From the NCBI GenBank assembly GCA_029776225.1, contig JAKOTR010000022.1, forward strand, positions 1-64,000: a stretch of DNA of 64,000 bases, written 5' to 3'. A program made the position numbers and the translations under genes. This DNA comes from Acidobacteriota bacterium (GTDB lineage: Bacteria; Acidobacteriota; Terriglobia; Bryobacterales; Bryobacteraceae). Under the pieces are notes generated by a model that was not told the origin of the DNA, searched no databases, and saw nothing but the letters and a program-made list of their open reading frames with translations. This document shows positions 1 through 52,823 of the stretch, in pieces (position 1 is the stretch's first letter; every line of letters starts with the position of its first letter).

Positions 1-1026
1 GAGGCGGTGGCGTGCCGGTACACCGGGCGGCGGCCCTCCGAGGGAGCTCGGGAGTGGATGTCCTGTTCCGTGGCCGACCTGGCGCGGGAATGCCTGATTG
101 CTGCAGGGCGAACGCCCACCACGCGTAGTCATAGCGAGCTGGTGCGGCTGGCGCTGACCACGAGCGACTTTCCCAACTTACTGAGCGGCGCTGGGCAGCG
201 CATGCTGCTCGACGCCTACCAGGCGGCGCAGCCGGAGATCAAACAGGTTTGCCGGCAGTCCACGGCGAGGGACTTCCGTACGAAGACCATTGTTAGGCTC
301 GGCGAGATGCCGGAGCTGCTCAAGGTGAACGAGCACGGAGAGATCACGCACGGCGCTGCGGCGGAAGCGGCGTCGAGCTACAAGCTGGCCACTTACGCGC
401 GGATCTTCTCGATCACGCGGCAGGCTCTGGTGAACGATGACCTGGGCGCGTTCGCCGATTTCGCCAGGGCTTACGGCGTGGCGGCCGCGACGGCGGAAGG
501 CAAGATTTTGAGCGGGCTGATCACGTCGAATCCCGTGATGTACGACGGCGTGGCGCTGTTCCACGCGAGTCACGGTAACCTCGGTGCCGGATCTGGCAGC
601 GCCCTCAGTCTGACGAGCTTGAGCGCCGCGCGCGCCGCCATGCGCCTCCAAACTGGCCTGGATGGCAAGACGGTGCTCGACATTCAGCCCCGGTTCTTGG
701 TGGTCCCGGCGGCGCTTCAGACGACGGCGGAGCAACTGGTGGCGGCGATCTATCCGGCGCAGTTCTCCGATGCCAACCCGTTCACGGGGCGACTGGTGGT
801 GGTCACCGATCCGCGGCTGGACGCGACGAGTCAAACCGCCTGGTATCTGCTGGCCGATCCCGCGATCGCGCCCACGATCGAGTTCAGCTATCTCGAAGAG
901 GCGCCCGGCCCGCAGGTCGACTTCCGCACGGGCTTCGAGGTCGATGGCATCGAGTGGCGGTGCCGGCTGGACTTTGGAGCGGGAGCGGTTGACTGGCGTG
1001 GGGCATATAAGGCCGCCGGAGCATAG
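1..1026 (+). CDS. Phage major capsid (head) protein, Mu gpT-like, partial at left edge
   Basis: The reading frame is open to the left edge, so the true start lies outside the window. What is visible resembles the C-terminal, capsid-forming part of prohead protease/major head fusions: a helical linker up to about residue 45, then the head fold. Family-like stretches are TSDFPNLL (about residue 58), KVNEHGEITHG, YARIFSITRQALVNDDLGAF, DGVALFHASHGN and the closing RLDFGAGAVDWRG. The protein would form the icosahedral shell of a phage or phage-derived particle. It is followed by a strong hairpin and small regulators rather than head-tail genes, so this is the edge of a prophage or a remnant. The call is firm as to family; whether the upstream protease domain is present cannot be seen. 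Confidence 0.85.
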   Translation, partial: EAVACRYTGRRPSEGAREWMSCSVADLARECLIAAGRTPTTRSHSELVRLALTTSDFPNLLSGAGQRMLLDAYQAAQPEIKQVCRQSTARDFRTKTIVRLGEMPELLKVNEHGEITHGAAAEAASSYKLATYARIFSITRQALVNDDLGAFADFARAYGVAAATAEGKILSGLITSNPVMYDGVALFHASHGNLGAGSGSALSLTSLSAARAAMRLQTGLDGKTVLDIQPRFLVVPAALQTTAEQLVAAIYPAQFSDANPFTGRLVVVTDPRLDATSQTAWYLLADPAIAPTIEFSYLEEAPGPQVDFRTGFEVDGIEWRCRLDFGAGAVDWRGAYKAAGA

Positions 1027-2152: not shown

Positions 2153-2364
2153 TGGAGCTACTCGGCAGACGTGAGGTTGCGAAGTTGCTGCGGGTCTCGC
2201 CTGGCACGTTGTGGGCGATCGTCAACGGCCACAGGCCTGGTCTGCCTCCTCTCCCTGTGATTCGCGTGGGCCGCCGACAACTGTTCCGGCGCGAGGCCGT
2301 GGAGGAATGGCTTCTGAAGGTCGAGGCACGATCATTATGCAGCGCGGATCGCTCCAAGTCGTGA
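2149..2364 (+). CDS. Excisionase-like helix-turn-helix DNA-binding protein
   Basis: A 71-residue protein with the HTH_17/excisionase layout: LGRREVAKLLRVSPGTLWAIV forms the HTH and PVIRVGRRQLFRREAVEEWL the wing and trailing helix. Such proteins either bind arm sites to steer excision by a tyrosine recombinase or act as small repressors. Its 3' end overlaps the integrase start by 28 bases, so the two are co-transcribed and probably work together. ATG 2149 or ATG 2152 could be used; nothing separates them. Confidence 0.7.
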   Translation: MMELLGRREVAKLLRVSPGTLWAIVNGHRPGLPPLPVIRVGRRQLFRREAVEEWLLKVEARSLCSADRSKS

Positions 2365-3425
2365 TGCACCGAGGCAAGAAGGTCTGGCGAGCCCAGTGGC
2401 GCCAGAACGGGCGGGGCCGCACCCGCATTCTCGGTCCCTACACGGACATGTCGCGGGCCGAAGCGCGGGCGATCCTCGATGGCATCCTTGCGCCCCTCGA
2501 GCAGAGCCGTGCGCGATCCCGGCTGGCGCATGCGGTCACCCTGCGGCGGTATGTGCTCGATGAGTATCTGACAACCAAGAGCCGCGTCTGGAAGGCGTCC
2601 ACGAGGCTGACAACCGAGCAGCTTATGGAGGCACACATTCTCCAGGCCTTCGGCGGCAGAGAACTCACTTCGATCACAAGGAAGGAGCTGCAGGCACACT
2701 TGGATGGCCTGGCTGAACGCGGGCTGAGCGCCTCCGTAGTGGGGCACGTCCGCTGGCAGCTATCGGCGATCTTCGCGATGGCGCAATCTGACGGGCTCAT
2801 CGCGGTAAACCCGGCGTCCGGGCTGATCACGCCGCGGTGCAAGGCGGGCGAGCCGAAGCGATCATTGAGCGTGGACGATGTGCGCCGTGCGGAGCTGATT
2901 CTTGAACCACGAGACCGGCTGCTGTTTCGGCTGGCGGTCTACGAGGGCCTCCGTCCTGGCGAGATCATCGGGCTGAAGCTGGGCGACATCCAGCCTGACG
3001 GTCTCCATATCGAACGACGGGTTTACCGCGGCAAGGTCGACTCTCCAAAGAGCGCGCGCTCGAGGCGAGTTGTCCCTCCTACTGACGGCACGCGGAACTT
3101 GATGGCCCTTTACGTCGAGAGCTTGCCAGATCGGAGCAACGATGCCTGGCTGTTCCCGTCCGAAGCGTTGAGGACTCCGATCAGCTACTCGAACATCTGG
3201 CGGCGTAGAATCGGGCCGGCGCTCAAGGCTGCGGGCATCGCAGGTGCCAACTACCAGGTGCTGCGCCGGACTTGGGTCACACACATTGCTGAAGCCGAGC
3301 GCGACGCCACAATTCGGGCGAAGCTTGCCGGCCACAGCGTGGAGGTGCATGAGAATGTTTATCGGCAGCCGGACGCGTCGGCTATGCGAAAAGCAATGCG
3401 CCGGCTGGAGAAGTTGCGCGAATGA
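2337..3425 (+). CDS. Tyrosine-type site-specific recombinase/integrase
   Basis: A 362-residue phage-type integrase. An N-terminal arm-binding AP2-like region (residues 1-60) is followed by a SAM-like core-binding domain (about 65-165) and the catalytic domain (about 175-355). Visible catalytic residues are the first Arg in EGLRPGEI (about 206), the second Arg in QVLRRTW, the His in LAGHS and the nucleophile in ENVYRQ (about Tyr 342). The first box-II His is Gln, as occurs in some integrases of this subgroup. ATG 2337 was chosen because upstream codons of the frame overlap the excisionase gene. The gene ends 174 bases from the 3' end of tRNA-Gly, the usual place for an integrase next to its attachment site. 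Confidence 0.9.
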   Translation: MQRGSLQVVMHRGKKVWRAQWRQNGRGRTRILGPYTDMSRAEARAILDGILAPLEQSRARSRLAHAVTLRRYVLDEYLTTKSRVWKASTRLTTEQLMEAHILQAFGGRELTSITRKELQAHLDGLAERGLSASVVGHVRWQLSAIFAMAQSDGLIAVNPASGLITPRCKAGEPKRSLSVDDVRRAELILEPRDRLLFRLAVYEGLRPGEIIGLKLGDIQPDGLHIERRVYRGKVDSPKSARSRRVVPPTDGTRNLMALYVESLPDRSNDAWLFPSEALRTPISYSNIWRRRIGPALKAAGIAGANYQVLRRTWVTHIAEAERDATIRAKLAGHSVEVHENVYRQPDASAMRKAMRRLEKLRE

Positions 3426-3598: not shown

Positions 3599-3673
<75 letters not shown>

Positions 3674-5303: not shown

Positions 5304-6407
5304 CTACTTCAGAGGCAGCGGGATCGCACGTCCGGTCTTGATCGACATCTTGGCGGCCTCCAGCACCTCCATCGTCGCGACGTTCAGATCGAGCGCCGAG
5401 GGCCCGTCGAGCGGCTGCTTTGTCTTGAGCCGGTGGACCATGTAAGTTACAGGTTCCGCGCGTTCCGGCGGAAGAGGAGTCACGGGGAGCTGGTCACCCA
5501 TCTGCTGCCGCCCGCGCCCTCCCGGCGCTTGCGACTGAGCCCCGCTGGGACGCTGTCCCGGCTTTCGAATCGTATTCCCCACAATACTGCCTTTCATGCC
5601 GTAGACTTCGTTGCCCAGCCTTTGGGCCGGCGGCAAATCCCAACTCGCTTCCAGAATCGCCACGCCGTCCTTATAGTTCAGAATGATGGTGGCGTTGTCT
5701 TCCACTTTGGGATACAGCTCCGGCTTGAGATGGTTCGCCGACGCGTAGACGCTCTCCGGAAGGCCCTTCAGCCAGAGGCTCCAGTTCACGATGTAGCAGC
5801 CGAAATCGACGAGCGCCCCGCCGCCGTTCTGGACCGGGTCGGCCAACCACCGAACAAATAAGGACGTCTTCGGATCCCCCGGGCCGCCGTGACCTTGCAC
5901 CGCGTGCAGGCGCCACACCGGGCCGATTTCTCCCGCGTCGACCGCGGCCTTGACCGCCCAATTCGTCGCCTGCCAGGTGGAGCCGAAGTTCGTCATCACC
6001 AGGATGTTGTGCTTCTTCGCCAGCGCCTGAATCTCCCGCGCTTCTTTCAACGTTGCCGAGAGCGGCTTCTCCACCATCACGTGGATTCCGCGCGGCGCGC
6101 AGTACCGGACGACCTCAACGTGCTGGTTCGTGGGGGTGAACGCCCAGACGATATCCGGCTTCGTCTGCTCGATCATTTTCCGGTAGTCGCTGAAGATCAG
6201 GTTCTCGGGTACGCCGTTCTTCTTGGCCTGCTCGACCAGTTCGGGAATGTTTTCGGCGAAGCCAACGAACTGCGCTACGTCGTTCTTGAGCATCCTCTTC
6301 AGATGGCTCCAGACGTGGGCGTGCAGTCCGCTGACTACCGCGATTTTGTACTCCTGAGCCGCCAGCGGCAGACCGAGCAGAAGTAGAAATCCAATCGCTT
6401 TTTTCAT
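5304..6407 (-). CDS. Periplasmic Gfo/Idh/MocA-family oxidoreductase with Sec signal
   Basis: A 367-residue member that differs from its neighbours by a short Sec-type signal peptide (MKKAIGFLLLLGLPLAAQ) and lacks the classic GxGxxG: the N-terminal beta strand reads YKIAVVSGLHAHVWSH. The EKPL motif is present (VMVEKPLSATLKEA, about residue 115), as is a family C-terminal domain. It lies between two larger paralogues, 21 bases after the upstream one, so they are very likely one transcript. The degenerate nucleotide loop suggests tightly bound cofactor or altered chemistry; this is inference. Confidence 0.8.
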   Translation of the reverse strand: MKKAIGFLLLLGLPLAAQEYKIAVVSGLHAHVWSHLKRMLKNDVAQFVGFAENIPELVEQAKKNGVPENLIFSDYRKMIEQTKPDIVWAFTPTNQHVEVVRYCAPRGIHVMVEKPLSATLKEAREIQALAKKHNILVMTNFGSTWQATNWAVKAAVDAGEIGPVWRLHAVQGHGGPGDPKTSLFVRWLADPVQNGGGALVDFGCYIVNWSLWLKGLPESVYASANHLKPELYPKVEDNATIILNYKDGVAILEASWDLPPAQRLGNEVYGMKGSIVGNTIRKPGQRPSGAQSQAPGGRGRQQMGDQLPVTPLPPERAEPVTYMVHRLKTKQPLDGPSALDLNVATMEVLEAAKMSIKTGRAIPLPLK

Positions 6408-6428
6408 CCAATCAATCCTTTCGAGGTA

Positions 6429-7829
6429 CTAGATGATATTACCTTGTGCATCGACTGTGTGGTTCTTGCCATCTCCTTCATAGCCCGGCCGCGGCGGCGC
6501 CTTATCGATCACCCGCTGCGTCGCGGGATCGAAGAGCATCGTCTTGCCCTGGCGGTAAGCCTCTACTCCCAACTTGATCGCCACGATCATCTGATAGCCG
6601 ATCTCGGCATGCGCGTTGGGCTGTTTCCGCGAGCGGACGCAACTGAAGAAGTTTGTCGTGTGAGGCGTCCGGGCATCTCTCTGGGGCCCCTGCGGAGGCA
6701 GCTCGTAAACCTTCGGCTCCGGACCCTCCTGCCGCCCGGCCGCACTCTGCCCTTCCCGCCGCCGCCGGAGTTCGGGGAATGTCTCTTCGTAAACGTGCAC
6801 TTGCCCGCGCGCAAGCACGATTGTGCCTTTGTGCCCGTAGATGGCCTGGCTGTGGAACCGTCCCATTCGGGAATTCGCCATGGACCCGGACATGTCGATG
6901 TAGTAATTCGGATATTCGATCAGCGTCGCGTAGGTGTCCGGCACCTCGCGGTCTTTGTGCACGTAAATGCCGCCGCTGGCGCTCACGCGGATCGGGAACT
7001 GCGGTCCCATGGCGTAAAGAATTGGCCCCAGACTGTGGAAGAACAGGTCGGTGGCAATCCCGCCCGAATAATCCCAGTACTTGCGGAACCGGAAGAAGCG
7101 ATCGGGGCTGAACGGCCGTTTGGGCGCCGGTCCGAGCCACCGGTTCCAGTCGATGGTCTGCGGCGTTCCTTCCGGTTCGATGCGGTAGTTCCACTCTCCC
7201 AACAGCGAGTTGCGGGCCGAAGTCGATTGGGCGCACAGCACCGGGCCGATTTCCCCGGCGTCGATCAATTCCCTGATTTTATGCGTGCTCGGCGAAGAAA
7301 GGCCCTGGTTGCCTACTTGCAGAATGCGGTTGTGCTTCTTCACCGCTTCCACGATAGCCTTCGCCTCCTCGATGGTGTGCGTCATCGGCTTTTCCAGGTA
7401 CACGTCTTTGCCGGCGGCAAGCGCGTCCAGGGCCATCCGGCCGTGCCAGTGATCGGGTGTGGCGATCAGCACCGCGTCGATATCGCTGCGCGCCAGCAGG
7501 TCGCGGTAATCGTTATAGACATCCCTGTCGGTCAGCCGGGCAATATCGCGCGCCCGCTCTCTGCGCTTCTCGTAGACGTCGCAGACCGCGACGACCTCGA
7601 TGTCCTTCTCCACTTCGGACTGCTCCATGAAAGCCCGGAGATGGACCGTCCCCATGCCGCCCATGCCGATGATGCCGACGCGGATGCGGTCGTTGGCGCC
7701 TATCACGCGCCCAGCCGACCTCACCGTCTGTGCGGCCGAAGCAGCCGTCGTGGCGCCGAGAGCCGAAGTTGTTGCCAGCGTGCGGCTCAGGAATGTGCGC
7801 CGCGTAGATGAAACCGGTTTCGTATCCAT
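6429..7829 (-). CDS. Tat-exported Gfo/Idh/MocA-family oxidoreductase
   Basis: A 466-residue oxidoreductase with a Tat-type leader (SSTRRTFLSRTLATTSA, signal ending near SAAQT), Rossmann motif VGIIGMGGMGTVH (about 52-64), ATPDHWHGRMAL and the catalytic EKPMTHTIEEA. The second domain has the FRKYWDYSGG and GVEAYRQGKTMLFDP signatures shared with the paralogue at 13652. ATG 7829 was preferred over the longer frame because it restores the RR leader and has AGAGGG upstream. It is the first oxidoreductase of the minus-strand run, 91 bases after the TonB receptor and behind a terminator-like hairpin. Confidence 0.87.
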   Translation of the reverse strand: MDTKPVSSTRRTFLSRTLATTSALGATTAASAAQTVRSAGRVIGANDRIRVGIIGMGGMGTVHLRAFMEQSEVEKDIEVVAVCDVYEKRRERARDIARLTDRDVYNDYRDLLARSDIDAVLIATPDHWHGRMALDALAAGKDVYLEKPMTHTIEEAKAIVEAVKKHNRILQVGNQGLSSPSTHKIRELIDAGEIGPVLCAQSTSARNSLLGEWNYRIEPEGTPQTIDWNRWLGPAPKRPFSPDRFFRFRKYWDYSGGIATDLFFHSLGPILYAMGPQFPIRVSASGGIYVHKDREVPDTYATLIEYPNYYIDMSGSMANSRMGRFHSQAIYGHKGTIVLARGQVHVYEETFPELRRRREGQSAAGRQEGPEPKVYELPPQGPQRDARTPHTTNFFSCVRSRKQPNAHAEIGYQMIVAIKLGVEAYRQGKTMLFDPATQRVIDKAPPRPGYEGDGKNHTVDAQGNII

Positions 7830-42794: not shown

Positions 42795-43750
42795 GACTCG
42801 CGCTCGATGAGGGCGGCAGCCAGAAGCGGAACCATAATCTCGTGGTGGCCCGTGAGCGAGATGCCGCGTCCTCCCGTCCGGGCGTGAGGGCGCTCAACCA
42901 CGTTGACCCTGGGCCGGTAATGCTGGAGGAAATCCATGTTGATGGTGGTGAAATTCCCGTGGGGGCAGCCAAGATTGCGCACCACCGAAACGGCCTTGAG
43001 AAACACTTCCGGCATGACGACCGCCGACCCCAGGTTGATATACACGCCGCCCTCGTTGAGCTCGGCCACCAGCCGGGCAAACAGGCGGAAGTCGCGGTGA
43101 GTTGCACGGCCGATAGCGCCCGGATCGGCGGCGGGATGGGTGTGCGGCGTATCTGTGCCGATAGCGACGTGAACGGTGACGGGCACGGAGGCGCGCCAGG
43201 CGGCCAGAAGCAGGCTCACGCCGGCAAACTGAGGGTCCGCGATGCAATCGAGGCGGCGGCCGAGCGCCTCGCCGATGCCGATCGAATCGCGGTCGCCTTC
43301 CGCGATCGCTTCGTTCATCTCGCGCCCGGTTTCCTCGGCCGTACCGAAGCGGCCATCCGGGAGCACCGCTTCCACATCCTCGCTGGTGGCGCCGGCAATC
43401 GCGATCTCGAAATCGTGAATGGCGGCGGAACCGTTCATGGCAAAGGCGGTGGCATAACCGCGCTGCATGAGGTCGATCAGCACGGGCGCCAGGCCGCACT
43501 TGATGACGTGCCCGCCCATGCCCCACAGCACCGGTTTCCCCTTGGCGCGGGCCGCGTATATGGCATCGGCCGCCGCGCGAAGGGAATCGGCGGCCAGAAT
43601 GTGCGGCAGCGTTTCCATCCAACCCGCAACACCGGCACCCTTTTCATACGGCCGGGCGAAATGCTCGACCCGCACCTTGCCGCCGCGTTCCCGTATGGGA
43701 ATGGTGTTGAGCGCGGTGAAATCGAGAGGTGTTTTGTCGTATCTGCTCAC
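42791..43750 (-). CDS. Deoxyhypusine-synthase-like protein
   Basis: A 319-residue soluble protein. Segments such as [39 protein letters not shown] and [15 protein letters not shown] recall the NAD-binding fold of deoxyhypusine/homospermidine synthases, as found in a bacterial group without eIF5A. True deoxyhypusine synthases have an active-site Lys near the C-terminus; here the end reads [20 protein letters not shown], with no evident counterpart. Translationally coupled (four-base overlaps) to uvrA upstream and to the CPBP protease downstream. The reaction is unknown; family assignment is from recognition of the motifs only. Confidence 0.55.
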
Positions 43751-46518
43751 GAAGCGCGTCCGTTCCTTCCGTTGCGCAGCACCTTAGCCAGCGCCTGCCC
43801 GGTGTAGCTCTTGCGGCATCTCATGACCTGCTCGGGCGTCCCCGCCGCCACAATGTGCCCGCCCGCCTCGCCGCCTCCCGGCCCGAGGTCGATGATCCAA
43901 TCGGCCGTCTTGATCACGTCAAGCTGGTGCTCGATCACCACCACCGTATTCCCGAGGTCCACCAGGCGCGCCAGAACATCGAGCAGCTTCCTGATATCGT
44001 CGAAGTGCAGCCCGGTGGTTGGCTCGTCCAAAATGTAGAACGTGCGGCCCGTCTGCCGCTTGCTCAGTTCGCGGGCGAGCTTGATGCGCTGCGCCTCGCC
44101 GCCCGAAAGCGTTGTGGAAGACTGGCCGAGGTGGATATATCCCAGACCCACGTCCACAAGCGTCTGGAGCTTCGCCTGGACCTGCGGAATGTTTTCGAGC
44201 ACGCCGGCCGCTTCTTCTACGGTCGCCTCCAGGATATCGGCAATCGAATAGCCCTTGTATTTTACCTGGAGCGTTTCGTGATTGTATCGCCGGCCGCGGC
44301 AGACGTCGCAGGTGACATAGACGTCGGGGAGGAAATTCATTTCGATGCGCTTGAGGCCGTCGCCTTCGCACGCCTCGCAGCGCCCGCCCTTGACGTTGAA
44401 GCTGAAGCGCCCGGGCTTGTAGCCGCGCTCGCGGGATTCCGGCAGCATCGCGAACAGGTCGCGAATGGGCGTGAATACGCCGGTGTAGGTCGCCGGATTG
44501 GATCGCGGGGTGCGCCCGATCGGCGACTGATCGATCTGAATCACCTTGTCGATGTGCTCGATGCCCTCCATGGCGCTGTGCGCCCCGGGCTCCTCGCGCG
44601 AGTTGTGCAGGGCGCGCATCAGCCGGCGGTAAACAATGTCGTTGACCAGCGTGGATTTCCCGCTGCCCGAAACGCCGGTGATCACGATGAACGTTCCGAG
44701 CGGGAATTCGACGGTGATGTTCTTTAAATTGTGCTCGCGCGCGCCGCGCACGATGAGCTTTTTGCCGTTGCCCTGGCGCCGCCGCGCCGGCGGCGGGATC
44801 TCCCGCGCGCCCGATAGGTACAGCCCGGTCAGCGAGGCGGGGTTGGCCGCGATCTCGGCGGGCGATCCACAGGCCACCACCTTCCCTCCAAGCCGTCCCG
44901 CTCCCGGCCCCAGGTCGATCACGTAGTCCGCCCGCTCGATGGTTTCGGCGTCGTGCTCGACCACCAGGACGGTATTGCCGAGATCGCGCAGGCGCGCCAG
45001 GGTGTCGAGCAGCCGCTCGTTGTCGCGCGGGTGGAGCCCGATCGAGGGCTCGTCGAGCACATAGAGCACGCCCCGCAGCTTGGAGCCGATCTGGGTTGCC
45101 AGCCGGATCCGCTGCGCTTCGCCGCCGGAAAGGGTAGACGCCGAGCGGTCGAGGCTGAGATAATCCAGCCCGACTGCGGAGAGGAACTCCAGCCGCGTGC
45201 GGATCTCGTCCACGATCCGCGCCGCAATTTGCGCCTCGCGCTCGGTCAGCTCCCAGCCGCGTACGGTTGGCAGCGCGCGGGCGACCGGAAGCGCGGCGAA
45301 ATCGGCGATCGAAAGCCCTTTCACCGTCACCGCCAGGCTGCTCGGCTTCAGGCGCTTGCCGTGGCAGTCGGGACACTCGATGGGCGACATGTAATCCATC
45401 AGCCAGTCGCGGTAGACGTCGGCCGCCTCGGAGTACTTCTCGTCCATGAGAGCGAGCAGGCCCTCGAAACCGTTGCCGCCGAACATAATGAAGTCCTGCG
45501 CCTTGGGTGGCAGATCTTCAAACGGCTTGGAAAGGTCGACCTTCTGGCGGCGCGCCGCCTCGGTGACGGTGTGGACCACGTAGCTGGAAGCCGCCGCCGG
45601 AACCAGGCCGCCTGCGAACAAAGGCTTCGAGTCATCGGCGATGAGCTTTGCCGGATCGAACGTCCACTTGCTCCCGAGGCCGGCGCAGGTTTCGCACGCG
45701 CCATAGGGACTATTGAAGGAAAACGAGCGCGGCTCGAGCACCGGCACGCTGGTGCCGCAATCCGGGCAGGCCAGCTTCTGGGAGTACAGGTGTTCCTCGC
45801 CGTTCACCACCGCCACCACGACGAGGCCATCGGCGAGCTTCGTGGCCGTCTCGATCGAGGCTTCCAGCCGCTTCTCGATCCCGGGCTTCACCAGCAGGCG
45901 GTCGATCGCCACTTCAATGGTGTGGTTGCGGCGGCGGTCGAGCACGATGGGTTCATCGAGCGACCGGAGCGTGCCATCGATGCGGGCACGCAGAAATCCC
46001 TGGCGCGCGAGTTTTTCCAGTTCCTTGCGGTACTCTCCCTTGCGGCCGCGCACTATGGGCGCGAGAATCATCACACGCTCGTTCTGCTTGAGCGCCATGA
46101 TCTGCCGCACGATCTGCTCGGTGGTCTGCTTGGCGATCTCCTGGCCGCACTGCGGGCAGTGCGGGATGCCGATCGAAGAATACAGCAGGCGGAGGTAATC
46201 GTAGATTTCGGTGATGGTGCCGACCGTGGAACGCGGGCTGCGGCTGGTGGTCTTCTGCTCGATGGAAATGGCGGGGCTGAGCCCGTCGATGGAATCCACC
46301 TCGGGGCGCTCCATCTGGTCGAGAAACTGCCGGGCATAGGGCGAGAGCGTCTCGACGTAGCGGCGCTGCCCCTCGGCGTAGATCGTGTCGAAGGCCAGCG
46401 ACGACTTGCCGGAGCCGCTCAGGCCCGTGATCACCGTAAACGTATTCCGGGGGATCTCGATGTCGATGTTCTTAAGGTTGTGTTGCCTCGCTCCGTGTAC
46501 GGTGATACGGTCCAGCAT
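43747..46518 (-). CDS. uvrA: UvrABC system protein A
   Basis: A 923-residue excision-repair ATPase, close to the usual 940. Two ABC modules: Walker [15 protein letters not shown] near the N-terminus and [14 protein letters not shown] about residue 620; signatures [15 protein letters not shown] and [15 protein letters not shown]; Walker [16 protein letters not shown] and [15 protein letters not shown]. Zinc-binding pairs CPQCG, CPDCG ... CETCAG, CPDCHG and CEACEGDG ... CDVCRG are intact. It scans DNA for bulky lesions and loads UvrB. First gene of the minus-strand uvrA-mtnA run, 108 bases after the AAA gene. Confidence 0.97.
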
Positions 46519-46626
46519 GGTGAGGGGGCGGCACAGGTCGCCAAAATTCTTATTTTCCCAGGAGTTGAGAGAGCGGGCAATCGGTGTGGATCGCGTCCCC
46601 GGCGTCAGGCTCGCTCACGATGGCGG

Positions 46627-48363
46627 TCAGGCACGCTCCAGCGCAGCGAGTTCCCTGGCCCGGCGGATCAGCTCGCCGCGATCGGCCCGCCGGTATTTTT
46701 CAGGGAGCAGCGAACTACTGGTGCACTCGAGAACAGCCACCAAGTTTTGCAACTCGATCTCAGTGGGATAGGAGGGCGGGATAAAATCCTCCAGCGCGTG
46801 CTTCAGGTCGTCGAGGCCGACCGTGTTCTCGTTCTCCAGGGCGCTCTTCATGCTCGCGCGGATGAGCACCGCTTCGATATCGGCGCCCGACAGCCCGGCG
46901 CAATGGGAAAGAAAATACTCTTCGGCTTCGGGCGTGGCTATCCGCACGCCGGTCTTTTTCTGCATGGCGCGAAAGAGCGCGAGCCGCTCCTCATCGGTCT
47001 CAGGATAGAAGAGCGCGATGTGCTCCTCGGCGCGGCCCTGCCGCTTCAAGTCCACCGGCAGCAGGTCGGGCCGGCAGGTGAGCAGGAACCAGATGACCTT
47101 GCCCCGCAACTCTGTATTGCCCATGAACGCGGCGATCTGGCCGAACACGCGGCTGCTGACGCCGCTGTCCCCGGTGGCGTGGCGCGTGCCGAGCTGCGCG
47201 TCGGCTTCGTCCACGATCACCACGATCGGGCTCATCGCCTTCAGCAGATTGAGCACCCGTTCCAGGTTGCCCTCGGTGACGCCCTGCCACATGCTGCGGA
47301 AGTTTTTCAGCGTCACGGCCGGGATGCCGACCTCGCCCGCAAAGCACGTCGTCAGAAAGGTCTTGCCGGTTCCCACCGGACCGGAGATAACGTAGCCCAT
47401 CGGCAGCACGCCGGTCTTCCCGGCGCGGAGCGCAGCCGCGGCGTCCTTCAGCTTCTTCTTGGCTGCCTCGTTGCCGGCCACCATCGAAAGATCGAACCGG
47501 CTCTCGACAAACTCAAGCAGACCGCCGGACTCCGCTTCGATCAGCTCCTTCTTCACCTGCCGCAAGAACTCCATCGTGAGCGGGCGCCGGTTCTCGATCG
47601 AGTGGCTGATCAGGCTCTGAAGCTGCACGCGTTTGAGGCCGGCGCAGAGGGCGGCGAGCGTTGCTTCGCTGACGTCGGATCCAGGCGGCAGCGCGCACCC
47701 GGCAAGCTGCGACCGGATGAACTCCAGGCGCTCGCTTTCATCCGGCAACGGAATGGCGATGGAAGCCACACCCGGATTCCGGACGATGCCCTGGTTCAGC
47801 TCGCTCAGATTCTCCGCAACCAGGCAAATGGTGACGTCGGCATGAAGAAAGGCCGGGTTCTGCGCCCAGCGCTTCAGGATAACGAGCGAGTTGCGGTCCT
47901 CCGCGGACATGCCGGAGATGTCGCCGGCGGGCACGATGGTCTCCGCGAAATCAATTACCAAAGCGATTTTCTTGCCGTCGTTGATCCGCGTACGCAGGTA
48001 GCTATCGAGCAAATTCAAAACTCCGTCGGGATTGCGCGGCAGGCCCGAGGAGTAATTGGTGCCGTGAAAGCTGTCGTATCCCGAAAGGGCGCGCCGAAAG
48101 TCGGCCTGCATCTCCGGCTCGGCGAAGCTCAGGCCGCCGCCGCGGTCGTAATAAATCACCAGGTCGCGCGCGCCGAACAAGGCGTGATGGAGGAATTTCT
48201 GCAGCGAGACGAACTCGCGCGCGTTCCCCCGCTGCATCGGGACGAGATCGCGCACGTTGCCGTACAGCACGAACATGGTGAGCGTGCGCGAGTAGTATTT
48301 CTCGGAAAGCTCTCTGGCCCAGCGGGGCAGCGATTCCAGATGCGTGTTTTGAACTGTTGCCAT
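46627..48363 (-). CDS. AAA+ ATPase with degenerate N-terminal AAA domain, linked to PspA
   Basis: A 578-residue protein with two AAA-like halves. The N-terminal half (about 25-225) keeps a Walker-B-like strand ([15 protein letters not shown]) but no Walker A. The C-terminal half is a classic AAA module: Walker A GPVGTGKT (328-335), Walker B VVIVDEAD (381-388), sensor-1 [11 protein letters not shown], arginine-finger-like RQGRAEEH (441-448) and a helical lid ([14 protein letters not shown]). The layout recalls Ycf46-like and Vps4/FtsH-clade ATPases, without protease or membrane segments. Last gene of the pspA operon, five bases after the membrane coiled-coil gene. It probably remodels PspA polymers or the membrane proteins of the operon; this is inference. 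Confidence 0.8.
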
Positions 48364-48368
48364 GGAAT

Positions 48369-49238
48369 TCAGGTCCGCAGGCGGGTACGCTGCGAGTCGG
48401 CCCGCGCCGGCTCGGCGGAGGGAATCGGCGCGAGCGAGGTGTCAACCGTCAGATCGAAAATCGCCTCCACTTCCTTGATCGTCTGCTCGGTCTGCTCGAC
48501 GTCGTGCAGAAGGTGCTCGAGCTGATCGCTGAGCTGCTGGGGATCCCGCATGGTGACGGACTGGTCGCGGATCAGTTGCAGCACTTCTTCAATAGCGGCG
48601 CACTGGGCGTCCACCACGCTGCAGTTCTCTTCCGCCTTGTGGTACTTTTCCACGCGCTTGGTGAGGATCTCGATGCGCTTGCGGTTGATCTCCTGCACTT
48701 TGGGCGGCTGTGACGGCAGGTCGCGCTGCAACTCCTCGATATCGCGCTGGATGGCTTTCGGATCGGTGGTGCGGAGGTGCTGCCGGTACGAGAACGCAGC
48801 GTGCAGCAGGCGGACATAGGAGTGGGCGAGGCCCTCGAGCCGCGAATCCATTTGCTGGACGAACAGTTGTGAGGTGGCCGACAGGCGGCTGTAGTTGCGG
48901 CGGATGCTGCGGCACACTTTATCGACATCGGCGTAGCGCAGCCGCATCTCCGGAGGGAGTTCGTGGAACAGGGCGGCGAGGGCTCGCTGGCGCCGGCGCT
49001 TCTCCTCCTTGTACCTCCAGGAGCGCACCAGGCGCTGGAAGGCTTTGCTCTGCGGCACAGTGCTGATGTAGATCAGTTCGATGCCCGCGGCGAGGATCAG
49101 CGGCAGCACGCTTCGCGAAAAAATCGCAAACAGCAGCATCCCCACCAGCAGGATCCAGTTATAGTGCCACTTCAGGGCCGCCTTGACGTAGGTGGCTGAA
49201 CCGTACTCCCGATCTTCCCCGACCCTCACGTCCGTCAT
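48369..49238 (-). CDS. Membrane-anchored coiled-coil protein of the pspA operon
   Basis: A 289-residue protein not recognised as a named family. Two adjacent hydrophobic segments lie at about 27-62 (YNWILLVGMLLFAIF and LPLILAAGIELIYIS), followed by a basic stretch (KEEKRRRQR) and a long, charged, largely helical region (about 90-265) with heptad-like spacing. The C-terminus is short and disordered. ATG 49238 has GGTGAG upstream; the longer open frame is a shadow of the small gene before it. Seven bases from that gene and five from the AAA gene, it likely anchors the ATPase or PspA to the inner membrane. Confidence 0.75.
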   Translation of the reverse strand: MTDVRVGEDREYGSATYVKAALKWHYNWILLVGMLLFAIFSRSVLPLILAAGIELIYISTVPQSKAFQRLVRSWRYKEEKRRRQRALAALFHELPPEMRLRYADVDKVCRSIRRNYSRLSATSQLFVQQMDSRLEGLAHSYVRLLHAAFSYRQHLRTTDPKAIQRDIEELQRDLPSQPPKVQEINRKRIEILTKRVEKYHKAEENCSVVDAQCAAIEEVLQLIRDQSVTMRDPQQLSDQLEHLLHDVEQTEQTIKEVEAIFDLTVDTSLAPIPSAEPARADSQRTRLRT

Positions 49239-49245
49239 AAGACGC

Positions 49246-49536
49246 TCACCCCAACCTACCCGCCGCCTGAGCGACCGGAACTTCTTCTTCGATGGTAGCG
49301 AGTCCGGCGCCCGGAATGAACCGCTCCGGCGGGAAGAGCAGCGCCACGCCGTCAGGCTGCTCGCCGGCCTGAGGCGAGTTCTCAAGCGGCTTTGGTTCCG
49401 CCGCTTTTCCTTTCCCCGCGCCTCCGAACCAGTCCCCGAGATCGAGAATGCCGTACCCGTGCAGGCTGTACGCCACCAGGGCCAGACCGAGCAAGAAGAC
49501 CAGCAGCCAGCCGCCCTTCTCAATCCGGATCGCCAT
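49246..49536 (-). CDS. Small single-pass membrane protein of the pspA operon
   Basis: A 96-residue protein with one N-terminal transmembrane segment (GGWLLVFLLGLALVAYSLHGYG, about 8-29) followed by a Gly/Pro/Glu-rich tail. Eleven bases after pspA and seven before the coiled-coil gene. No family recognised. By position it could be a PspB/PspG-like small partner that recruits PspA, but it has no sequence sign of those proteins. Confidence 0.7.
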   Translation of the reverse strand: MAIRIEKGGWLLVFLLGLALVAYSLHGYGILDLGDWFGGAGKGKAAEPKPLENSPQAGEQPDGVALLFPPERFIPGAGLATIEEEVPVAQAAGRLG

Positions 49537-49547
49537 GGCTCAATGCC

Positions 49548-50279
49548 TCAGCTCGTGCGCTCCTGCTGCCGGGGGGCAATGGTTTTTTCGGCGGTTCCGG
49601 CGGCAGGCTCCGGCGCCAGCAGGCCCATCTCCACTTTGAACTGCTTCACCAGTTCGGCAGCCCGCAGCTTCTCGGCTTCCTCCTCGATCAGGAATTTCTG
49701 CTGATCCACGTTGCCCATGGCCATTTCCATGCGGGCCTCATTCATCGCGGTCATGCGCTCGATGCGCTGCACCATTTCGTCGTGCGTCTGGCTGATTCCG
49801 CCAATCTCGAACTGTTCCATGGCGTCGGCCACCCTCTTCTGCCACTGCGCGCGGCGGTACTCGCGGATGGCGGCCATCGCCTCCTGCGTCTTGCGTTCCT
49901 TCTCACGCAGGAAACTCTGCTTTACGACCAGCGCTTTCTCGTAGGCGGCGCGGGCGGTGGCGAGCTGGCCCTGCGTGCGCGCCAGGGCGCCGCGCAACTG
50001 CTCGAACTGAATCGCGAAGCTGCCGGCCAGATCGTCGCGGTTCACCTGGATGGCAGCTTTGATCTTCGCCGTGAGGTCGGCCAGTTCCGCCTTGTACTTG
50101 GCTTCCTCCTTTTCGAGCAGCGTCACGTTGGCTTTCACCATCGCGATGCTCTCGTTCATCCGCGGAAGCTGGTCGTTCATGTCGCGAATGTTCTGCTCCA
50201 GGATGAGTTCCGGGTTTTCCGTGAAGGAGATGAAAAACCCGAAGAATGAACGGATTGCCCGGGACAAACGCCTCCACAT
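49548..50279 (-). CDS. pspA: PspA/IM30 (Vipp1) family protein
   Basis: A 243-residue member of the PspA family, now placed with the ESCRT-III superfamily. After an amphipathic start (WRRLSRAIRSFFGFF) come RDMNDQLPRMNESIAMVKANV, long helices rich in Ala, Glu and Lys through residue 220, and a short tail. It would bind stressed inner membrane and form rods or coats. It lacks the canonical MGIFSRFxDI start, so it is a diverged branch. AAGGAGGATTTGGA precedes ATG 50279, an unusually strong ribosome-binding site. First gene of a four-gene operon ending in an AAA+ ATPase. Confidence 0.82.
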   Translation of the reverse strand: MWRRLSRAIRSFFGFFISFTENPELILEQNIRDMNDQLPRMNESIAMVKANVTLLEKEEAKYKAELADLTAKIKAAIQVNRDDLAGSFAIQFEQLRGALARTQGQLATARAAYEKALVVKQSFLREKERKTQEAMAAIREYRRAQWQKRVADAMEQFEIGGISQTHDEMVQRIERMTAMNEARMEMAMGNVDQQKFLIEEEAEKLRAAELVKQFKVEMGLLAPEPAAGTAEKTIAPRQQERTS

Positions 50280-50772
50280 TCCAAATCCTCCTTAGGGGCT
50301 TCCGGCCTTGAGCGCCGGGCGGCGCCGCAGCCGGGATATCGCCCGGTTGTGATTATGTTTTCCGGCCGACAACCTCATTTTCTTCGCTTTAATACGAAAA
50401 CGAGATTCGGCTGTGAGTCGTTCCATTGCCAAGCCGGGTTTTGCGGTTTTTCCCGGCTCTACGGGCTTCGGGACCAGTGAGGTTGAATTCGAACACGCGC
50501 TCACGGGCGTTCAGCGCGCCGCCCCTGGCGGCATCTTCGATTATCTCCTGCAATTTCGCGCCCGCGGCGCAGGACTGCGGCGCGTCCGGTCTGCATCCAG
50601 CCGGCTCGCCTTCCCCGTTCCCTCCGAAAATGAACACGCCAGACCACCCTTTGCCCAACACGCCTGCGTGAAGTAGTCCCGCAAGGACGATATCAGAAAG
50701 GGGTAGATGGCTGCAAGATCGGCGGAGTCAACCGGAGTTCCCCGAAGCGCCGCGAGAGTCTTTGGGGGTTCG
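50280..50772. other. Non-coding stretch upstream of pspA
   Basis: 493 bases between lpxI and pspA, both on the minus strand. No open frame here looks like protein. A 7-bp inverted repeat (50431-50437/50451-50457) is present. The pspA promoter must lie here; CATAAT (minus, about 50356) is a possible -10 but lacks a clear -35, and no sigma-54 element was recognised. Confidence 0.4.
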
Positions 50773-51585
50773 CTAATCCTGCGGCGCCAGGCCCACAATT
50801 GCGATATTCGCCTCGTTGGCCTTGGCGAGCATCTCGTCCCGGTCCAGCAGGAGCGTGCGACCGGCGTCCACCGCCATCGCCGTGGTTCCGGTCTCGATCA
50901 TCGTGTCGATGGTCCGCGGACCCGCCACCGGCACGTCAAACAGCAGGTGGGCGCGGCGGCGGCCGGACTTCACCAGAGTGAGCGGGCGGCCGTTGGCCAG
51001 CGAGGCGGCGCGTTGCAGCATGGCGTCCGTTCCCTCCATCGCTTCCACGGCCACACAGGCCCGCTCGCAAATCGCGCAGCTCTGCCCGATGTCAAAGCCG
51101 GCCAGGGCGCTGGCGACGCGGCGCCCGTATTCGATGTCGGCAAGCTCGGACTTGGTCGGCTTGCGCCGGCTCAGCACGCCCTCGCCGGCCAGCAAAGGCT
51201 TGAGCAGCGCCGTGGAATCGGCCAGTTGGATGCCCTCGCTTTCGAGCACCCGGGCCACGCCGCCGATGAGCGCGTCCGTGTTCTTGTGGGGAAGCGAGGC
51301 CAGCAGCTTGACCAGCCGCCAGTCGGGCACGATGGAGGAAAAAATCCTGGTGTGCTTCACCTGGCCGGCCATCACTACCTGCGTGATGCCCTCGCGCTTC
51401 AAAATTTCGATCAGCTTTCCAAGCTGCCCGAGCGAAATCCAGTAGCAGCGCGCGGCCAGAGCCTCCACTTCCTTCGAGGCTTCCTCCTGGATCGCAATGA
51501 CCACGACCTCGTGCCCGAGCTGGCGCGCGCTCTCCAGCGCGAGGATAGGGAAGCGTCCGTTGCCGGCGATCAGCCCGTAGGTCAT
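50773..51585 (-). CDS. lpxI: UDP-2,3-diacylglucosamine pyrophosphatase, LpxI type
   Basis: A 270-residue LpxI (DUF1009) protein hydrolysing UDP-2,3-diacylglucosamine to lipid X in lipid A synthesis. Family signatures: GLIAGNGRFPILALESAR at the start, MAGQVKHTRIF, DIEYGRRVASALAGFDIGQS, VEAMEGTDAML and KSGRRRAHLLFDVPVAGPRTI. ATG 51585 overlaps the lpxA stop by four bases and is the family start; the frame runs further upstream inside lpxA. LpxI replaces LpxH in several phyla. Confidence 0.92.
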   Translation of the reverse strand: MTYGLIAGNGRFPILALESARQLGHEVVVIAIQEEASKEVEALAARCYWISLGQLGKLIEILKREGITQVVMAGQVKHTRIFSSIVPDWRLVKLLASLPHKNTDALIGGVARVLESEGIQLADSTALLKPLLAGEGVLSRRKPTKSELADIEYGRRVASALAGFDIGQSCAICERACVAVEAMEGTDAMLQRAASLANGRPLTLVKSGRRRAHLLFDVPVAGPRTIDTMIETGTTAMAVDAGRTLLLDRDEMLAKANEANIAIVGLAPQD

Positions 51586-52358
51586 TTCACTACGCCGCGG
51601 CGCGATTCTTGAATAAACCCGATCAGCTCTTCGACTTCCGGGCAAGGCTCGACTTCGGCGCGGATGCGCTCAATGGCCTGCGAGGTATTGAGACCCGCAC
51701 GGCTCAGCAGGCGGAAGGCTTTGTGCAGCGCGTCGCGCGTCGCGGGGGGAAAGCCGCGGCGCTCCAGCCCGACTACGTTGGCGCCGAAGGTCTTGACCTC
51801 GCGCTCGCTCACGGTCATCGAAAACGGCATCACGTCCTGGGTGATCACGCTGTGCGGGCCGATCATGGCGTGGCGGCCGACGCGGCAGAACTGGTGCACT
51901 CCGGCATAAGGGCCGACCACGGCCCAATCGCCCACCGTCACGTGGCCGGCAAAGTGGGCGCCGAGCCCGATGATCGTGTGGCTCTCAATGCGGACGTCGT
52001 GGGCGATGTGCGCATAGGCCATCACGAGATTGTCATCGCCGATCGAAGTCACCAGTCCCCCGCCCTCGGTGCCGCGGTGGATCGTGACGAACTCGCGGAT
52101 TTTGTTCCGGTTGCCGATGCGCGTTTCAGCCCGCTCACCGCGGTACTTCAGATCCTGCGAGGCCACGCCGATGGTCGAGTAAGGGAAAAAAATGTTGTCC
52201 TCGCCGATCGTCGTGGGCCCTTCCATGTAGACGTTCGCCATCACACGCGTGCGCGCGCCGATTTCGACTTCGGGCCCGATGATGCAGTAAGGGCCGATTT
52301 CGGCGCTCTCCGCAATGCGCGCCGAGGGATCGACGATCGCGGAGGGATGGACCGGCAT
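51582..52358 (-). CDS. lpxA: Acyl-ACP:UDP-N-acetylglucosamine O-acyltransferase
   Basis: A 258-residue left-handed beta-helix acyltransferase catalysing the first step of lipid A synthesis. Hexapeptide repeats run from VHPSAIVDPSARIAESAEIG to residue 185; the catalytic His lies in AYAHIAHDVRI (about 123), with HRGT and GAHFAGHV around it; a C-terminal helical domain follows. The start is immediately after the fabZ stop (TAAATG), and the stop overlaps lpxI, giving the operon fabZ-lpxA-lpxI. Confidence 0.95.
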   Translation of the reverse strand: MPVHPSAIVDPSARIAESAEIGPYCIIGPEVEIGARTRVMANVYMEGPTTIGEDNIFFPYSTIGVASQDLKYRGERAETRIGNRNKIREFVTIHRGTEGGGLVTSIGDDNLVMAYAHIAHDVRIESHTIIGLGAHFAGHVTVGDWAVVGPYAGVHQFCRVGRHAMIGPHSVITQDVMPFSMTVSEREVKTFGANVVGLERRGFPPATRDALHKAFRLLSRAGLNTSQAIERIRAEVEPCPEVEELIGFIQESRRGVVK

Positions 52359-52823
52359 TTATTGCGCGGGCGCCGCTTCCGCTTGCGGGGCGGCCTTTTC
52401 GGCAAGCTTGCACATCACTTCGGCCTCGGCGACAACGACGCCGTCCACGGTGGCCGTGCCGTGCATCTTGGCGACGAAGGACTTCCGCTTACTTACTTTC
52501 ATTTCAATGCGGAGCTGGTCGCCGGGCACCACCGGGCGGCGGAACTTGGCCTGCTCGATGGATGCCAAAAAGACCACCTTCTGCCGGGTCTCCAGACTCT
52601 TGAGCACCAGAACGCCGGCCACCTGAGCCATTGCCTCGACGATGAGGACGCCGGGCATAACGGGGAACTCCGGAAAGTGCCCAACGAAAAAGGGTTCGTT
52701 GATTGTGACGTTCTTGATGCCCACAATGCGGTCGGGCTCGAGCTCCACGATGCTGTCGACCATCAGCATCGGGTAACGGTGCGGCAGTATCTGCTGAATC
52801 GCTACGGTGTCCAAAATGGGCAT
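52359..52823 (-). CDS. fabZ: (3R)-hydroxyacyl-ACP dehydratase
   Basis: A 154-residue hot-dog-fold dehydratase of type II fatty-acid synthesis. It shows [15 protein letters not shown] with the catalytic His (about 14), [31 protein letters not shown]-type region with the catalytic Glu (positions about 40-70), and a conserved [14 protein letters not shown]. It competes with lpxA for hydroxymyristoyl-ACP, the usual reason the two are paired. The start is only 25 bases from the divergent M20 peptidase gene, so promoters must overlap coding sequence or be very compact. Confidence 0.95.

Follow-up and report, generated by a model that had tools for sequence, protein, structure and literature searches.

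A reduced PspA–AAA operon in an Acidobacteriota genome and a conserved motif in the tails of AAA-linked PspA proteins

Description of the operon

The operon is located in a 64,000-nt stretch of DNA of an Acidobacteriota bacterium (GCA_029776225.1, contig JAKOTR010000022.1, positions 1–64,000, forward strand), hereafter the window. It encodes PspA, a protein of the ESCRT-III superfamily, a membrane coiled-coil protein (CC) and a tandem AAA protein with two ATPase domains (D1 and D2). The source assembly is a metagenome-assembled genome (MAG) draft of 115 contigs, 97.7% complete. Four open reading frames (ORFs) lie on the minus strand, in the order and with the gaps of 11, 7 and 5 bases given by the initial annotation. 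The operon is probably a reduced member of a known PspA–AAA operon family, in which the motor would act on the PspA tail through a short motif. The following features are distinguished.

49548..50279, minus strand: pspA, 243 residues, ESCRT-III superfamily protein (Pfam PF04012, 64.5 bits, residues 2–204).
49572..49589, minus strand: codons of the PspA tail motif, E-KTIAP, residues 231–236 (family comparison; K232 nearly invariant over 33 PspAs).
49246..49536, minus strand: 96-residue ORF, stump of a gene for a periplasmic binding protein (PBP) fused to OmpA; homology confined to 49381–49536 or 49339–49536, depending on the query (blastp, tblastn).
48369..49238, minus strand (ATG at 49238): CC, 289 residues (hydropathy, AlphaFold helices, conservation beside AAA).
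46627..48363, minus strand: tandem AAA protein, 578 residues; degenerate D1 at about 8–280, active D2 at about 284–547 (Pfam, alignment, fold).
47359..47382, minus strand: Walker A of D2, residues 328–335, GPVGTGKT (G328, G331 and K334 in 38/38 rows).
50379..50568, minus strand: remnant of gene1 upstream of pspA, split over two frames (tblastn with gene1 of locus L042).

PspA scores well above the PspA_IM30 gathering score (64.5 bits against a cut-off of 33.9) and is the sole match to this family found in the source genome.

Properties of the AAA protein

The Pfam AAA match (PF00004, 74.4 bits) is restricted to residues 325–450. The initial annotation had described one dead and one intact ATPase domain, which agrees with the alignment: a Walker A motif occurs before residue 280 in 0/38 homologues and after it in 37/38. 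G328, G331, K334, D385 and E386 are kept in 38/38 aligned homologues. R444 does not vary, and R441 is present in every row with a residue at that column (36/38, two gaps); residues of this type in the active domain are presumably the arginine fingers.

The AlphaFold model has a mean pLDDT of 87.8 and a pTM of 0.82. In Foldseek the full-length protein aligns with D1–D2 of p97/Cdc48/Rix7 (best E 7e-21; TM by query length up to 0.62 among the 50 matches listed), and the alignment with p97 D1–D2 runs from about residue 4–13 on. In VIA-align, p97 D2 (3cf0) and Vps4 (3eih) are tied as matches of D2 at Z 22.2, with a root-mean-square deviation of 2.7 over 260 and 261 residues; spastin, fidgetin-like 1 and FtsH follow within about 1.3 Z of the top matches. 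MIT and Vps4_C are absent from the five Pfam families matched at E up to 1, in a search where weak matches are for the most part removed by the HMMER filters. Among NCBIfam models, FtsH, CDC48 and proteasome-activating types score highest and CdvC reaches 33 bits, each far short of its cut-off. The PADLOC defence scan gives general AAA similarity only (IetA, TRIP13). Neither the Pfam nor the NCBIfam search matches it to AAA proteins of the rubisco-activase or gas-vesicle type.

The protein is predicted to be a p97-like unfoldase with a dead D1 and an active D2. It is Vps4-like in the active domain and p97-like in layout; it is not a Vps4, because no MIT match is present and the domains are in tandem.

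Properties of the CC protein

Hydropathy peaks from about residue 31, and long helices follow (AlphaFold pLDDT 80.1). Pfam gives weak matches below cut-off for CC, none of them to Snf7 or PspA, and no match for the 96-residue ORF. Against the PspA profile, hhalign returns a probability of 0.4%; CC as a PspA/Snf7 paralogue is therefore not supported. The fold search yields nothing at E 0.001 or better. In VIA, Z reaches 12.9 for designed bundles and about 11 for F-BAR domains and a secretion stalk, a range common for helical models. ESCRT-III entries are not among the 50 matches listed for the CC fold, which is no evidence of difference. CC may be one of the 'Snf7 homologs with a TM segment' named in the accessible part of PMC11237479. 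In close Acidobacteriota relatives, the C terminus of CC (48369–48400 in the window, minus strand) consists of a variable stretch and, after it, a conserved Arg-rich end, approximately RxRxRN, with R286 nearly invariant.

Operon in related Acidobacteriota

Two samples were used: 76 loci from genome_contigs, and regions from 247 Acidobacteriota genomes drawn across the phylum, among which 38 genomes contain an AAA relative at E 1e-30 (L numbers denote loci, G numbers genomes). The usual order in relatives comprises seven genes: gene1, PspA, PBP/OmpA, permease, ABC ATPase, CC, AAA. Gene1 encodes about 237 residues without a family above cut-off; the PBP/OmpA product, of about 522 residues, is an NMT1/SsuA-like PBP fused to OmpA; the permease is TauC-like. 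The third gene is longer in some loci (about 601 residues in L044, L048 and others), and that of L048 has OmpA matches, with none of SsuA type among the 25 matches shown.

Same-strand genes were counted in those 45 genome_contigs loci of Acidobacteriota in which the sequence upstream of AAA extends over 5.8 kb or more; part of the absences are cuts at the locus end (e.g. L046). Gene1 is present in 36, PspA in 39, PBP in 39, permease in 40, ABC ATPase in 40 and CC in 44. All five genes from PspA to CC occur in 38/45 loci, and 35/45 have gene1 as well. With PspA in 39/45 and CC in 44/45, linkage with AAA is not due to chance. In the phylum sample, the 36 AAA places have a same-strand PspA nearby in 25 cases, CC in 21 and permease in 18, and gene order varies. 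Triads of PspA, CC and AAA free of transporter genes occur in five places of other families (L118, L119, L121, L122, L126).

Two subclades of AAA deviate from this pattern. In L138–L142 the AAA gene has no recognisable partner genes. In the subclade L147–L151 it stands beside a very diverged PspA (L147, L149, L150, L151), the tail of which ends in LPE, RPEI or RPNI and is not of the KTLGP type.

Reduction of the window copy

With gene1 of L042 as the query, the source genome gives, beside one chance-level match, only 46 residues directly upstream of pspA (E 0.0055). Within the window the remnant runs in frame −2 over 50568–50434 and continues in frame −3 over 50426–50379 (16 residues; E 8e-6 for both pieces, tblastn). 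The 96-residue ORF had been annotated as a single-pass protein. The ORF is real, and its first residues, about 57, correspond to residues 1–57 of the PBP/OmpA protein of L042 (about 522 residues) at 63% identity. No second copy of the PBP half is found in the source genome, the other matches being OmpA-domain parts. The distance from PBP start to CC start is 298 bases in the window and 3244 in L042. The ORF is thus a stump, and one of the two membrane partners of the initial annotation is what is left of a lost transporter component. The permease query has no match in the source genome at E 1e-5 (the ABC ATPase was not searched genome-wide), and ABC matches inside the window belong to other ABC genes. 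Judged by sequence comparison, the window operon is a secondarily reduced copy with gene1 broken and the permease and ABC ATPase lost.

It is very improbable that the missing transporter genes are an artefact of MAG assembly. Such an error would suit a draft in 115 contigs, and in G247, of the same genus and apparently the genome of L042, gene1, PspA, PBP/OmpA, permease, ABC ATPase, CC and most of AAA stand in a row. However, gene1 is independently frame-broken upstream, and the assembly, 97.7% complete as it is, has neither a second PBP half nor a permease match at E 1e-5.

Decay of the whole operon, with the three remaining genes on their way out after the loss of gene1 and the transporter, is a somewhat less remote alternative, yet an improbable one. 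It would account for two separate lesions, in gene1 and in the PBP/OmpA–transporter part, and for the window PspA having more amino-acid-changing differences than that of L014 to the same relatives (pN to L003, L009 and L042 of 0.147, 0.121 and 0.143, against 0.116, 0.083 and 0.106). Against it, the PspA, CC and AAA ORFs are all open, the catalytic residues and the tail motif (in KTIA form) are kept, and the same triad stands alone in the five places listed above. The ratio of nonsynonymous to synonymous differences (pN/pS) was compared between the window and five relatives and among the relatives, numbers in which a recent loss is invisible. It is not raised for AAA (window 0.21–0.31, relatives 0.20–0.36) or for CC (0.40–0.51 and 0.35–0.54).

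Tail motif of PspA

The C-terminal tails of AAA-linked PspA proteins carry a motif of approximately [KR][TSEDQ][LIM]GP; the window form, KTIAP, passes the loose pattern only. K232 is one of only 15 invariant or nearly invariant columns in 33 AAA-linked PspAs, and the surrounding tail is variable. KTI[GA] is present in 46 of the 47 complete PspA tails of the Acidobacteriota genome_contigs loci, the exception being L070. The forms by family are EKTLGP, EKSLGP, KELGP, KEIGP, KDLGP, REMGP, KQMGP, or terminal KTM or KTL.

Motif counts refer to the 247-genome sample, with 84 PspA places, of which 80 were used and 77 counted, without the incomplete ends G026, G021 and G196. G115, G060, G136 and G221:C8 were dropped as below the family cut-off; G202:C13, also below, was kept. 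G030 was relabelled AAA-positive for an AAA fragment at a contig end. AAA proteins were divided by the authors into a PspA clade and other clades after the gene neighbourhoods had been seen, and family f28 is counted on both sides, G113 lacking AAA and some other members having it. Three slightly differing patterns were used. The first was replaced after false matches to RQMG and REMG where helix 5 ends; the third overlooks KTIG when V or N comes next (L003, L052) and picks up the copies G189, G204 and G105 of family f21.

Genomes with an AAA of the PspA clade have the motif in 28/32 PspA copies by the strict pattern and in 29/32 by the loose one; by family, in 18/18 loose and 17 strict. The three motif-less copies are second copies, a motif-bearing copy also being present. 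The motif occurs in 0/4 copies of genomes with other AAA clades. Genomes without AAA have it in 0/41 strict and 8/41 loose, all eight in f21. Scored with leave-one-family-out matrices, the 29 copies reach 6.3–17.4 and every other copy at most 4.7. The family-level Fisher test (18/18 vs 0/9) gives p 2e-7, a value that ignores kinship and is not to stand alone. In f32, pspA and AAA are far apart and the motif is kept in 5/5 PspAs. In f21 a PspA–CC pair is found in the four loci examined; a profile search of ten genomes detected no AAA orthologue, the best matches covering mainly the AAA domain in FtsH-like frames of about 650 residues. A tree built without the tail places f21 and the second PspA of G202 (long branch) among the motif bearers; both are without AAA and without the strict motif.

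The tail motif is a new, testable element of this analysis. No report of it, or of a tested PspA–AAA pair, was found in a literature search limited by the small number of subscription papers covered.

Further arrangements of pspA are as follows. In L236 (6818–8877) a motif-bearing pspA, far from its AAA, adjoins mreB (Pfam), and in L238 an MreB-like gene (by eye) lies about 4 kb from pspA. L223 (genome G113) has three tandem pspA genes, and no AAA orthologue was found in that genome.

Comparison with described systems

The PspA–AAA association is not of a new kind. In the part of the 2024 survey PMC11237479 that was accessible, bacterial PspA stands beside a protein with two AAA+ domains of which the N-terminal copy is inactive (examples AEY64321.1 and OGG56892.1), an ABC transporter and a PBP-OmpA protein 'may occur' in operons of greater length, and ATP-dependent remodelling is proposed for the pair. 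The window shares with that operon, as far as described there, PspA, the tandem AAA with a dead first domain and a membrane helical protein. Its relatives share the ABC ATPase, the permease and the PBP-OmpA protein; the transporter arm is lost in the window, which does not exclude membership. The tail motif does not appear in the text of the survey that was accessible. The initial idea of a PspA polymer with its own motor is partly supported, by the joint conservation of PspA, CC and AAA, and is already in print.

With ESCRT-III and Vps4/CdvC of archaea and eukaryotes, the window operon shares the pairing, within one operon, of a superfamily polymer with an AAA motor, as well as the D2 fold (tied with Vps4, 3eih, Z 22.2) and the Walker A, Walker B and arginine fingers of the active domain. 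A short conserved motif on the C-terminal tail is also shared, a likeness of role and not one from sequence comparison with MIT-interacting motifs (MIMs). The differences are that the window AAA is tandem, without an MIT match, and that PspA takes the place of Snf7/CdvB. By analogy, the tail motif may resemble a docking handle for AAA, comparable in role to the MIM tails of ESCRT-III.

The type II unfoldases p97/Cdc48/Rix7 share the D1–D2 layout over the full length. The window AAA differs from them in a D1 without Walker A, in the absence of an N-domain, the protein starting directly at D1, and in belonging to a bacterial envelope-linked operon. Classical Psp systems (pspF, pspABC) have PspA in common with the window locus, where PspF, PspB and PspC are not seen. 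The absence of these three, as first annotated, holds for the ORFs of the locus (flanks by eye) and not for PspC in the genome as a whole; PspF and PspB were not searched genome-wide. Elsewhere in the source genome, a different contig has a gene with a PspC domain (G000 C18:76446–76616).

Proposed mode of action

In most near relatives, the seven genes would link the PspA polymer and its AAA motor with a TauABC/SsuABC-like ABC importer, the PBP of which also has an OmpA domain for peptidoglycan binding. The source lineage lost gene1 and the transporter arm, which was dispensable here, and kept the triad of PspA, CC and AAA. The PspA polymer would assemble on the inner membrane, and CC, anchored there through a hydrophobic stretch near its N terminus, would keep the motor close. 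AAA would form a hexamer in which the D1 ring is inert and ATP drives the D2 ring, and would grip the flexible C-terminal tail of PspA via the [KR][TSEDQ][LIM]GP-type motif. D2 would then pull out or exchange PspA subunits, and the coat would be reset. It is put forward more tentatively, as a possibility that falls a little short of probable, that the motif serves as a code by which a dedicated motor docks, an independent p97-like tandem-AAA counterpart of Vps4-recruiting MIM tails.

An unlikely alternative, though the strongest of those considered, is that the target of AAA is CC or the ABC transporter/PBP complex, with PspA as a bystander stabilising the surrounding membrane. CC is the most constant neighbour of AAA (44/45 loci, against 39 for PspA, with permease in 40/45), and spirochaete AAA genes adjoin lipoprotein genes and not pspA. 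This alternative is countered by the recurrence of transporter-free triads, by the window itself, which lost the transporter and kept PspA and AAA, by f21, which keeps PspA and CC without AAA, and by the tail motif, which tracks AAA even where the genes are far apart.

Action of AAA on PspA remains the preferred interpretation, and a number of findings weigh against it. PspA rods remodel membranes in vitro without a partner motor, according to the accessible part of PMC11746142, where chaperones or PspF are suggested as possible recyclers of PspA. No PspA lies near AAA in 11 of the 36 places of the phylum sample: G063, G051 and G165 (f32, pspA elsewhere), G211 and G136 (short contigs), L138–L142 and L152. 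PspA of the window is slightly less constrained than in relatives (pN/pS 0.19–0.28 against 0.12–0.23). The motif patterns were written after the linked set had been seen. The test of independent pairs has only five supported pairs, of which one to three agree and none disagree, and is not significant. L070, with adjacent PspA and AAA, is without the motif, as are the divergent AAA-linked PspAs of L147, L149, L150 and L151 and seven spirochaete PspAs in AAA-bearing genomes. Family f21 lacks AAA, yet has KQI at the place of the motif in 11/16 copies, 8/16 passing the loose pattern. In Spirochaetes, 10/10 AAA loci have no PspA nearby (the available flanks vary), and in 3/10 genomes with the AAA family no PspA was found at all; the family is therefore not always dedicated to PspA.

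Two spirochaete loci, L066 and L076, carry an AAA of the same family (about 46% identity) at about 5970–7730, downstream of lipoprotein genes and without PspA in the flank. The lipoproteins of L066 are LpoB and LPP20 (Pfam), and the genes of L076 are similar-looking. These loci are a second envelope-linked context for the AAA motor. The joint conservation of PspA, CC and AAA and the grouping of AAA with p97/Cdc48- and Vps4-type motors remove most of the doubts that the initial annotation had raised about its own proposal.

If the motif is a docking code of this kind, bacteria would possess a complete ESCRT-like machine of polymer and recycling motor, and the window would hold a near-minimal natural version with three proteins. 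A three-protein core and a candidate handle of about six residues make the published guess of ATP-dependent PspA remodelling simply testable.

Surroundings of the operon

On the same strand, lpxI lies upstream of the operon and uvrA (named by eye) 108 bases downstream of the AAA gene. Rfam gives zero matches over 43000–52500. The promoter scan of 46400–50800 gives zero promoter-like sites, with 0.7 expected, and the same interval has seven terminator-like sites, with 4.1 expected. At the beginning of the window, a phage capsid gene (7–1026, plus strand; Phage_capsid_4, also Mu gpT-like), a phage integrase gene (2211–3425, plus strand) and tRNA-Gly(ccc) (3599–3673, minus strand) follow in a row; an integrated phage or element probably ends here, at the tRNA.

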